Positions 6-60,196 of a stretch of 60,196 nt of DNA are shown here, one piece after another. Under the pieces are notes generated by a model. That model saw only the letters and a list, made by a program, of their open reading frames with translations, searched no databases and was not told the DNA's origin. Each line of letters opens with the position of its first letter. Position 1 is the first letter of the stretch. Source of the stretch: an uncultured bacterium (GTDB lineage: Bacteria; Hydrothermota; Hydrothermia; UBA1063; CAJXJZ01); NCBI GenBank assembly GCA_913055745.1, contig CAJXJZ010000007.1, forward strand, positions 1-60,196. The letters run 5' to 3'. The position numbers and the translations under genes were made by a program.

Positions 6-80
6 CGGGATTCCTCAAAAATAATCTACACGAAATGTCATTGTTTCCCCAAAATAAATATTGTCCAAAAGGCTATCTGA
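6..80 (-). repeat. Dispersed upstream element, copy A
   Basis: Copy of an element also found at 26826, 59560 and 60010, with a half copy at 30046. On the plus strand it carries a TTCCTCAAAA box at 11 and a second box (TTCCCCAAAA here) at 45, 34 nt apart, followed by a degenerate form of a GGGCATCC-like tail. In copies B, C and E the minus-strand end of the element lies 4-5 nt from a -35 box. By analogy a minus-strand promoter should lie just left of this window. Confidence 0.75.
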
Positions 81-26539: not shown

Positions 26540-26755
26540 TTACCTCCGCCTTCTTACATGAGCGGCCTTAGGCCCTTTTTCAGATTTTATAATTTCAAAC
26601 TCTACCTCTTCTCCTTCCTCCAGCGTCTTATATCCTTCACCTTCTATGTCGCTGAAGTGTACGAACACATCACCACTACCATCCTCGAGTTCTATGAACC
26701 CGTATCCTTTCCTTGAGTCAAACCATTTGACCCGTCCTTTCTTTACATCAGACAT
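26540..26755 (-). CDS. Cold shock protein (CspA family)
   Basis: A 71-residue single cold-shock domain. [18 protein letters not shown] contains RNP1 (KGYGFIEL), and [17 protein letters not shown] contains RNP2 (VFVHF). [27 protein letters not shown] finishes the OB-fold with a basic tail. It binds single-stranded nucleic acids and melts RNA structure. GGAGGT lies 7 nt before the ATG at 26755. The promoter is strong and the gene is preceded by the dispersed upstream element (copy B), so it is probably one of the more highly expressed genes here. Confidence 0.95.
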
Positions 26756-26792: not shown

Positions 26793-26821
26793 AGTATACA
26801 CCCAAACCCGAGCCCTGTCAA
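26793..26821 (-). promoter_or_regulatory. Strong promoter of the cold-shock gene
   Basis: Minus strand: TTGACA (26821-26816), 17-nt spacer, TATACT (26798-26793). The 38-nt leader carries GGAGGT. The -35 lies 4 nt from the end of element copy B. Confidence 0.85.
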
Positions 26822-26825
26822 CCCC

Positions 26826-26898
26826 CGGGATTCCTCAAAAATAATCTACACGAAATCTTATTGTTTCCTCAAAATAAATATTGGAAGAAAGGGCATCC
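26826..26898 (-). repeat. Dispersed upstream element, copy B
   Basis: Best-preserved copy: TTCCTCAAAA boxes at 26831 and 26865 (34 nt apart), then AAATAAATATTGG and a GGGCATCC tail. On the minus strand its last bases (GAGGAATCCCG) end 4 nt before the -35 of the cold-shock promoter. Confidence 0.8.
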
Positions 26899-26933
26899 AT
26901 CTTTTAAAATATATTGCTAAAAACGAATTAAAT

Positions 26934-29902: not shown

Positions 29903-29911
29903 GTGTTTTAA

Positions 29912-29996
29912 TGCCGGGGGCGGGACTTGAACCCGCACAGGAAAAACTCCCACATGGCCCTCAACCATGCGCGTCTGCCAATTCCGCCACCCCGGC
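29912..29996 (-). tRNA. tRNA-Leu (anticodon GAG)
   Basis: An 85-nt class II tRNA: acceptor GCCGGGG pairs with CCCCGGC, anticodon stem CATGG/CCATG with loop TTGAGGG (anticodon GAG, reading CUC/CUU), a long variable arm, and TTCAAGT in the T loop. The discriminator is A; the CCA is not encoded. A strong promoter lies 17-45 nt upstream. Confidence 0.95.
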
Positions 29997-30012
29997 AGGG
30001 TGAAGTGTCAAA

Positions 30013-30041
30013 ATTATAAGATACATATATCGCACCGTCAA
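30013..30041 (-). promoter_or_regulatory. Promoter of tRNA-Leu
   Basis: Minus strand: TTGACG (30041-30036), 17-nt spacer, TATAAT (30018-30013), about 17 nt before the tRNA 5' end. It is preceded by the half copy of the dispersed element. Confidence 0.85.
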
Positions 30042-30045
30042 GTTT

Positions 30046-30075
30046 TCGGGATTCCTCCCAAAAATTATTTTAGAT
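30046..30075 (-). repeat. Dispersed upstream element, half copy E
   Basis: CGGGATTCCTCCCAAAAATTATTTTAGA on the plus strand matches the first half of the element, with CCC replacing one C in the box; the second box is not recognisable. It lies 5 nt from the -35 of the tRNA-Leu promoter, the same spacing as in copies B and C. Confidence 0.6.
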
Positions 30076-30133
30076 TATAGGATAGTAAACTCGCCTTATG
30101 CATTGATAAAGAACAAGAAGCTCTGTTTTCTAC

Positions 30134-55851: not shown

Positions 55852-56151
55852 ATGGTAAAGGGTATCAGGTTACTTTTGCGGGGTGAGGTGCAGGGTGTTG
55901 GATTTAGGAATTATGTGTTTATGCACGCAGACTTATTAAATATAAAGGGTTATGTAAGGAATTTGCCAGATGGTAGTGTGGAGGTCGTTTACATCCCCAC
56001 TGATCCAAAGAAACAGGAAGAATTTGAGAAAAAGGTTAAAAGGGGTCCTTTACTTTCCCGTGTTGATAGCGTGGAAAGGACAGAAGTTATACTTAAAGAG
56101 GAGCCTGAGGGTTTTGAAATTAGGTTTAGCCCCCGTAGCTCACAAGGATAG
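55852..56151 (+). CDS. acyP: Acylphosphatase, 3' end running into tRNA-Arg
   Basis: A 99-residue acylphosphatase, hydrolysing carboxyl-phosphate bonds. RLLLRGEVQGVGFRNYVFMHADLLNIKGYVRNLPDGSVEVV (in parts) holds the phosphate loop GEVQGVGFR with the catalytic Arg, and the Asn of KGYVRNLPDGSVEV. The natural fold ends at FEIRF. The frame then continues with seven codons (SPRSSQG) and a TAG that belong to the tRNA-Arg gene (from 56129), because no stop precedes it. Cutting at the tRNA 5' end would remove the stop. The transcript appears nearly leaderless. Confidence 0.9.
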   Translation: MVKGIRLLLRGEVQGVGFRNYVFMHADLLNIKGYVRNLPDGSVEVVYIPTDPKKQEEFEKKVKRGPLLSRVDSVERTEVILKEEPEGFEIRFSPRSSQG

Positions 56152-59287: not shown

Positions 59288-59355
59288 ATTGCCCTCCTCT
59301 GTTTAGTTTAATATTAAAGTCAAGATAGTGGAGAGTAAAGAGTGAGTTTAAAATA

Positions 59356-59429
59356 TGGGCGGAGGAGGACTTGAACCTCCGACCTCTGGTATGTGAGACC
59401 AGTGTTCTCGCCACCTGAACTATCCGCCC
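59356..59429 (-). tRNA. tRNA-Val (anticodon CAC)
   Basis: GGGCGGA acceptor with TCCGCCC, anticodon stem CTGGT/ACCAG with loop CTCACAT (anticodon CAC, reading GUG), GGTTCAAGTCC T arm. Discriminator A. It is 9 nt downstream of tRNA-Met in one transcript. Confidence 0.95.
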
Positions 59430-59438
59430 ATAAAAAAA

Positions 59439-59511
59439 TGGGCCCGCAGGGACTCGAACCCCGAACCAACGGATTATGAGTCCGCTGCTCTGCCGATTGA
59501 GCTACGGGCCC
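59439..59511 (-). tRNA. tRNA-Met (anticodon CAT)
   Basis: GGGCCCG acceptor with CGGGCCC, anticodon stem GCGGA/TCCGT with loop CTCATAA (anticodon CAT), GGTTCGAGTCC T arm. It is elongator-like; it lacks the three G:C anticodon-stem pairs of an initiator. Ile2 (lysidine) cannot be excluded by eye. Confidence 0.9.
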
Positions 59512-59525
59512 ACATGGGTGTTAAA

Positions 59526-59554
59526 ATTATAACCCATTTATGATGAAAATGCAA
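59526..59554 (-). promoter_or_regulatory. Promoter of tRNA-Met/tRNA-Val
   Basis: Minus strand: TTGCAT (59554-59549), 17-nt spacer, TATAAT (59531-59526), about 15 nt before tRNA-Met. Element copy C ends 5 nt from the -35. Confidence 0.8.
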
Positions 59555-59559
59555 ACAAT

Positions 59560-59618
59560 CGGGATTCCTCAAAAATAATCTACACGAAATACCATTGTTT
59601 CCTCAAAATAAATATTGA
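59560..59618 (-). repeat. Dispersed upstream element, copy C
   Basis: Two TTCCTCAAAA boxes at 59565 and 59599 (34 nt apart), almost identical to copy B but without the GGGCATCC tail. It abuts the tRNA-Met/Val promoter. Confidence 0.8.
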
Positions 59619-59692
59619 CTCATTCCTTAAAATACATTAAGGTGAGAATGAGTATTATGTTGAGAAGATTAAAGAGTATATTCGGTTGAAAC

Positions 59693-59764
59693 ATCCCCCT
59701 ACCCCCCTTCTAAAGAAGGGGGAATTTCTCTTACTATCCCCCTTGGTGGGGGACTAAGGGGGAT
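59693..59764. repeat. GC-rich palindromic repeat, unit 1
   Basis: Begins ATCCCCCT and ends AAGGGGGAT. It contains the hairpin CCCCCTTC-TAAA-GAAGGGGG (59703-59722) and a second imperfect hairpin, ATCCCCCTT...AAGGGGGAT (59736-59764). This REP-like type is common in intergenic DNA of environmental genomes. Confidence 0.85.
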
Positions 59765-59807
59765 TGTTTCCAAAGAGGAGGATGAAAAAATATGGATTGA
59801 GAACAAC

Positions 59808-59900
59808 ATCCCCCGTCCCTTCGGGACACCCCTTCTAAAGAAGGTGGAATTTTAGTAGTTTTCCCCCTTGGTGAAGGGGGACAAAGGGGACCCCTCCCTT
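59808..59900. repeat. GC-rich palindromic repeat, unit 2
   Basis: A diverged second unit with an added GTCCC-TTC-GGGAC hairpin and the CCCCTTCTAAAGAAGG core. After both units the same CAAAGAGGA...AAAAAATAT spacer follows (59771 and 59916), so repeat plus spacer form a ~115-145 bp tandem duplication. Confidence 0.8.
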
Positions 59901-59940
59901 ATTGAAATATACGATGTCAAAGAGGATAAAAAAATATAAG

Positions 59941-59956
59941 GTATGTTTAAACATAC
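59941..59956. repeat. Perfect 16-bp palindrome
   Basis: GTATGTTTAAACATAC, a perfect inverted repeat with no loop, typical of a dimeric DNA-binding-protein site or a recombination site. No gene starts next to it. Confidence 0.5.
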
Positions 59957-59982
59957 AATCTCAACATTAATTTCAAATAGAT

Positions 59983-60080
59983 TTATTTTTGAGGAAATAC
60001 GGTGTTTGGCATTCCTCAAAAATAATCTACACGAGCGGGTATTGTTTTCTCAAAATAAATATTTAAAGGAAGGGCATCCA
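59983..60080. repeat. Element copy D with inverted box pair
   Basis: TTCCTCAAAAATAA (60012-60025) begins copy D and is faced by its exact 14-bp reverse complement at 59983-59996, with a 15-nt loop. The second box (TTTCTCAAAA) follows at 60046 and the GGGCATCC tail at 60072. Unlike B and C there is no -35 next to its left end; the nearest promoter (60095) points the other way. Confidence 0.7.
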
Positions 60081-60094
60081 GTATGCAAGTATGA

Positions 60095-60123
60095 TTGACT
60101 GTCTATTTGTATTAATGTATAAT
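60095..60123 (+). promoter_or_regulatory. Promoter of the terminal oxidoreductase gene
   Basis: TTGACT (60095-60100), 17-nt spacer, TATAAT (60118-60123), then a ~40-nt leader with TGGAGG before the ATG at 60166. Confidence 0.85.
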
Positions 60124-60165
60124 TTGTAATATGTATATTTACATCCTTAAAACATGGAGGATGAT

Positions 60166-60196
60166 ATGGCCGCAAAAGTTCTTATAATTGGAGGGG
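60166..60196 (+). CDS. Start of a Rossmann-fold (probably FAD-dependent) oxidoreductase, partial
   Basis: Only ten codons: MAAKVLIIGG, running off the window. VLIIGGG at the start is the dinucleotide-binding strand and loop of FAD/NAD oxidoreductases such as NADH oxidase, sulfide:quinone reductase or thioredoxin-reductase-like enzymes. The ATG at 60166 is five bases after TGGAGG; the ATG at 60161 is out of frame. Confidence 0.6.
   Translation, partial: MAAKVLIIGG

Follow-up and report, generated by a model that had tools for sequence, protein, structure and literature searches.

The dispersed repeat of the window (the whole stretch of 60,196 nucleotides analysed here) is very probably the left end of a MITE, mobilised by a DDE transposase of the rve fold and inserted in one orientation, with a 5-bp target-site duplication (TSD) lying flush against the -35 box of a promoter. 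Comparison of sequences at many such sites indicates that the transposase most likely recognises sigma70 promoters, and that what it recognises there is probably the bound RNA polymerase. The earlier note had read the repeat as a host activating site upstream of high-output genes; that interpretation is partly supported, in that the repeat is a dispersed, probably mobile element held at a fixed 5 nt upstream of -35 boxes, a placement not due to chance.

Copies of the repeat in the window

Copies start at positions 6, 26826, 59560 and 60007, and a truncated copy starts at 30047; the earlier note had located the same five, with two of the starts given as 60010 and 30046. The two boxes 34 nt apart that it described are present in copy B at 26831 and 26865, and box counts are far above shuffled expectation: TTTCCTCAAAATAAATATT (up to 3 mismatches) is seen 4 times in the window where 0.23 would be expected, and CGGGATTCCTCAAAAA 6 times where the expectation is 0.86, counts reached by no shuffle. 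Distances of 4, 5 and 5 nt from the CCCG end of the repeat to the -35 boxes of the csp, tRNA-Met/Val and tRNA-Leu promoters were likewise borne out.

Copy B (26826-26899, forward strand) is a MITE left end that has lost its body and right end. It lies 4 nt from the csp promoter (26793-26821, reverse strand), which consists of a -35 TTGACA at 26821-26816, a 17-nt spacer and a -10 TATACT at 26798-26793, and which precedes a cold-shock protein gene of 71 aa (26540-26755, reverse strand). Copy E (30047-30085, forward strand) is a decayed or truncated left end with the outer box only, 5 nt from the promoter (30013-30041, reverse strand; TTGACG at 30041-30036, 17-nt spacer, TATAAT at 30018-30013) of a tRNA-Leu(GAG) at 29911-29997, also on the reverse strand. 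Copy C (59560-60001, forward strand) is a complete MITE of 442 bp, so that the element is longer than the 55-80 bp at first assigned to it; it has a two-box left end at 59560-59617, a REP-like palindromic body and an inverted right end at about 59962-60001 (TATTTTTGAGGAAATACG). Its left end faces the promoter (59526-59554, reverse strand; TTGCAT at 59554-59549, 17-nt spacer, TATAAT at 59531-59526) of the tRNA-Met(CAT) and tRNA-Val(CAC) genes (59355-59512, reverse strand) at 5 nt, or at 4 nt if the promoter is read as TTTGCA-18. The REP-like palindromes of the body are CCCCCTTCTAAAGAAGGGGG and CCCCCTTGGTGAAGGGGG (59690-59900), and a palindromic C/G-rich stretch is also found in the flank of a complete IS of a relative (L066, 1617-1680).

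Copy A (6-63, forward strand) is a left end with an outer and an inner box, both putative binding sites of the transposase; it matches copy B at 95% identity over 58 bp and has only 5 nt of flank before the contig edge. Several contigs terminate within the repeat, some sharing an identical 55-nt end, and the window edge at copy A is therefore probably an assembly break. Copy D (60007-60080, forward strand) is a left end in tandem with copy C, with no promoter on its outer side. The gap between the two copies is exactly 5 nt (60002-60006), which looks as though the right end of copy C had been the target when copy D inserted. Beyond it, a promoter and the start of an HdrA-like oxidoreductase (60096-60196) are duplicated elsewhere in the genome, at L021 (G000:C1:112657-112732); the repeat adjoins both duplicates in opposite arrangement, which suggests a rearrangement via the repeat.

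The genes downstream of the repeat were earlier described as all high-output, and this holds for the tRNA and csp genes of the window; genome-wide, tRNA genes are faced by 4 of 26 copies and the others face mixed genes. The sole tRNA of the window without the repeat is a tRNA-Arg at 56129, which starts within, or a few bases past, an upstream reading frame and has no obvious promoter of its own. An Rfam scan of the window for RNA families returned tRNAs only.

Identity and anatomy of the element

A model of the first 74 nt of the repeat, built from sequence only, was searched in 60 genomes and matched in 19, its own included; in relatives this end is followed by a gene for a transposase. The best complete IS (L066, genome G031) has its left end CGATCTTCGTCAAAAATAATC at 129 and its right end GACGAAAGACG, encodes a transposase of 426 aa with an rve integrase core, and is bounded on both sides by a perfect 5-bp TSD, ACCTC. 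Perfect 5-bp TSDs also flank L057 (GGTAT) and the 410-bp MITE L088 (TATTT). Among 73 more distant family loci, a 5/5 TSD was found in 23 (22 of them unique) where about 1 would be expected by chance, in a search that favoured matching pairs and tried 16 pairs per locus. About 20 of these 23 members carry two boxes at each end (consensus TTGCCTCA), spaced 34-35 nt on the left and 35-37 nt on the right; the box takes the form TTCCTCAAAA in the own genus and TTGCCTCA elsewhere. Because both IS ends carry two boxes at fixed spacing, the two TTCCTCAAAA boxes 34 nt apart first noticed in the window are the outer and inner boxes of a left end, to which the transposase presumably binds.

The autonomous relatives with a transposase gene (L066, L067 and others) all lie outside the own genome. 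An rve match (PF00665) was obtained for 45 of 46 family transposases, and no Mutator-type Pfam family was among the hits of the 46 members. L066 stays below the curated NCBIfam cut-offs of IS481 (62.4 of 224 bits), IS3 (38.7 of 160) and IS30 (37.9 of 80), and 45 of the 46 members match IS481 as a distant relative only. In the predicted transposase structure (pLDDT 84.5), a helical, HTH-like region at the N-terminus is followed by an RNase-H core and then by helices at the C-terminus; since the structure resembles PFV integrase, TnsB and IstA, the protein is an enzyme of the integrase superfamily.

Within the own genome (1.79 Mb), the repeat was matched 44 times by blast and 33 times by the model, with about 27 left ends having readable flanks; 80 further left ends came from 12 relatives. 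The own MITEs are 60-450 bp long and carry no transposase gene. Their left boundary is sharp at CGGGATTCC; on the other side, complete copies extend across REP-like palindromes as far as the inverted right end TATTTTTGAGGAAATACG. CGnnnTTCCTCAAAAATAA is present at both ends as inverted terminal repeats, and the ends of the IS copies are similar. A transposase gene of the family was not found in the own genome, and the MITEs were probably mobilised by an enzyme whose gene is no longer present there or is missing from the assembly. No own two-ended MITE has an exact TSD, the best being 4/5, and the own copies are thus old or recombined. Three of them (L011, L012 and L025, on G000 contigs C59, C22 and C3) directly adjoin CRISPR arrays with the repeat GTTTCAATCCCTTATAGGTAGGCTCAGAAC or ...CCTCATAGG...; in place of their right part they have sequence that runs into the array.

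Register of insertion at sigma70 promoters

Promoters were predicted from consensus, by a score for TTGACA and TATAAT with a spacer of 16-18 and a threshold of at least 9 of 12, at offsets 0 to 24 in 105 flanks (27 own and 78 from relatives), copies of one genome being counted as distinct sites and not as independent elements. Of the 105 flanks, 75 have a promoter of this score starting at offset 5, 9 have one at offset 4 and 12 at offset 6, and no other offset has more than 2, against 0.9% of random window positions with offsets 4-6 allowed. Placement by coincidence, with transposon debris settling in AT-rich intergenic DNA, is refuted by this offset test and by the same rule being obeyed in distant phyla, and has practically no probability left, even though the copies are transposon remnants and for the most part intergenic. 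Transposon debris and random position relative to promoters were both named in the earlier note as grounds against its own reading; the copies are the first and are not the second.

Of the 78 flanks from relatives, 63 have TTG at +5 and 57 have TAnnnT at +28. Where TTG is at 5, the spacer is 17 nt in 54 of these flanks and 18 nt in 5, and since the longer spacer shifts the -10 and not the -35, it is the -35 that fixes the register. A few own copies (L023, L024) had made anchoring on the -10 seem likely, a reading abandoned when the larger set was found to anchor on the -35. Position-wise information is high at the hexamer positions only, around 5-10 and 28-34. Seven of the 27 own copies (L011, L016, L017, L021, L026, L029, L030) have no promoter in register.

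The distant members, found in Chloroflexota, Acidobacteriota, Spirochaetota, Actinomycetota, Bacillota, Armatimonadota, Aminicenantes and others, have TTG at +5 in 26 of 54 flanks (0-3 elsewhere) and TAnnnT at +28 in 24 of 54. As a control, the right flanks of the TSD-bearing distant set have TTG at +5 in 2 of 22 and TAnnnT at most once at any offset near +28. In a tree of 46 transposases, members that follow the promoter rule (28 of 41 scored rows) are scattered over all its parts; misses cluster in high-GC Actinomycetota, where a clear promoter match is often absent. Copies L007, L023 and L033 combine a poor -35 with a good -10. The G017 copies, near-identical and hence young, follow the rule already, and L054, which probably lies within a long open frame, is still found at TTGAAA-17-TACAAT.

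Empty and re-used sites in sister species

The orthologous csp promoter is empty in sister species G002 and G003. In G001 it is occupied by a different family member (ending ...AATGAGGCAACTCG), followed by 5 nt (CATCA) and then by the same TTGACAGGGC. The tRNA-Met/Val promoter is without an element in G001 and G003, and the tRNA-Leu promoter is empty in both, with G002 having a fuller family member at the same position. The empty csp and tRNA sites imply that the promoters are older than the insertions, and their occupation by different members at the same place implies that one promoter can be hit repeatedly.

Mechanism of target choice

Insertion is oriented, with the left end placed exactly 5 bp upstream of a sigma70 -35 box and the promoter reading away from the element, and generates a 5-bp TSD flush with that box. 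The element then fills the region from about -42 upstream and leaves the core promoter intact; because its landing spot is 5 bases upstream of the -35, it comes to sit beside genes and does not break them. The target could be chosen by a transposase that touches RNA polymerase-sigma70 on the promoter, in the vicinity of sigma region 4 or the alpha-CTD, or that reads promoter DNA. Contact with the polymerase is suggested by the joint need for -35 and -10 with natural spacer variation, by the copies with weak -35 and good -10, by the compliance of the young G017 copies with the rule and by the site of L054. The balance tips, by a modest degree, towards a large rve-type IS group, as yet undescribed and present in many phyla, whose single transposase would dock on RNA polymerase-sigma70 at the promoter and insert the element at a fixed spot, 5 bp upstream of the -35.

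The main rival to polymerase recognition is direct reading of -35 DNA followed by selection, in which the transposase would respond to a short TTGAC-like word only and insertions away from promoters would later be removed. It competes with the polymerase step and not with the transposon reading. An insertion point anchored to the -35, with an 18-nt spacer moving the -10 alone, is what such a mechanism would give. Against it, the -10 at 17 +/- 1 nt is almost as conserved as the -35, and neither the good -10 boxes of L007, L023 and L033, nor the compliance of the young G017 copies, nor the site of L054 fits a short word well; on this evidence it is considered unlikely, if the most serious of the alternatives.

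The activating site of the earlier note, factor-bound or UP-like and selected by the host at strong promoters, fares less well. The element does lie between about -42 and -100 and adds a stretch rich in A/T (ATTATTTTTGAGG), and the genes faced include tRNA, csp, TPI and ribosomal-protein-type genes. Ordinary genes are faced as well, however, the orthologous promoters of sister species lack the element, and in relatives the same boxes lie on either side of transposase genes, marking the two ends of complete IS copies that have 5-bp TSDs. Their position is explained by insertion specificity, and selection as a host activating site is judged very improbable; any activation of the adjacent promoter, itself putative, would be a by-product of insertion.

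The insertion sites also serve as a map of sigma70 promoters in uncultured phyla with few or no measured promoters. The element may also change regulation wholesale, because it brings new sequence to -42 of many promoters. The question raised is whether the transposase reads RNA polymerase.

Comparison with known systems

The earlier note knew of no described equivalent; one exists in TnGBS, ISLre2 and the ISKra4 group (p-MULT), which target sigmaA promoters 15-17 bp upstream of the -35 and for which RNA polymerase contact has been proposed by analogy with Ty3 (PMC3942029). Both they and the present family are DDE transposons that lie upstream of promoters with their orientation and distance fixed. 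Membership in p-MULT was nevertheless rejected, since those elements have a Mutator-like transposase and a distance of 15-17 bp, whereas the present family has an rve/integrase-type enzyme and a distance of 5 bp, with the TSD flush with the -35. The p-MULT work was the only precedent for promoter targeting in bacteria in the openly accessible literature searched, where promoter-addressed transposition had thus been attributed to no transposases other than Mutator-like ones. That a second family, with an unrelated transposase, follows a tighter geometry suggests convergence in evolution on a harmless landing site.

A 5-bp TSD and a 5-bp distance also suggested the IS1202 family and its ISAjo2 group, which target the XerC side of dif sites and have ends TGT...ACA (PMC10132070). 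They share with the present family the single orientation, 5 bp from a recognised site, the extra internal transposase boxes near each end and a TnsB-like DDE transposase, a fold that amounts to a general likeness only. Their target is the dif site, whereas the flanks of the present family carry sigma70 promoters, and membership was rejected as no sequence relation was detectable; comparison with the ISNCY transposase at the published ISSen13 site of pSRC27-H gave a blastp E of 0.87 and an hhalign probability of 2%.

By transposase, the closest named IS is ISBj12 (Bradyrhizobium), from the uncharacterised set ISNCY, with about 34% identity over 83%; it differs in a transposase of about 500 aa and in additional outer inverted repeats. 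In ISBj12-type copies from Bradyrhizobium and Rhizobium plasmids (L227, L228, L231) the extra inverted repeat lies outside a TTGCCTC box (CGCGACAATCAGGATGAGAGCG in L227), and because of it the true ends and target of this type may differ from those of the present group. The rhizobial plasmid copies were tried as a source for the target rule and set aside, as their true ends seem to lie farther out and no rule is readable. No paper on ISBj12 targeting was found in the literature searched.

In the yeast retrotransposons Ty3 and Ty1, the Pol III machinery brings an integrase-fold enzyme to a constant position upstream of transcribed genes, through a contact that has been demonstrated. The present family likewise has an integrase-fold enzyme at a fixed place upstream of transcribed genes; it differs in that Ty3 and Ty1 are eukaryotic retrotransposons with a demonstrated Pol III contact, whereas contact with RNA polymerase is here deduced from the insertion sites. 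If the docking mechanism is correct, the IS group would be a one-protein, naturally promoter-addressed insertion system, and an independently evolved bacterial counterpart of Ty3.
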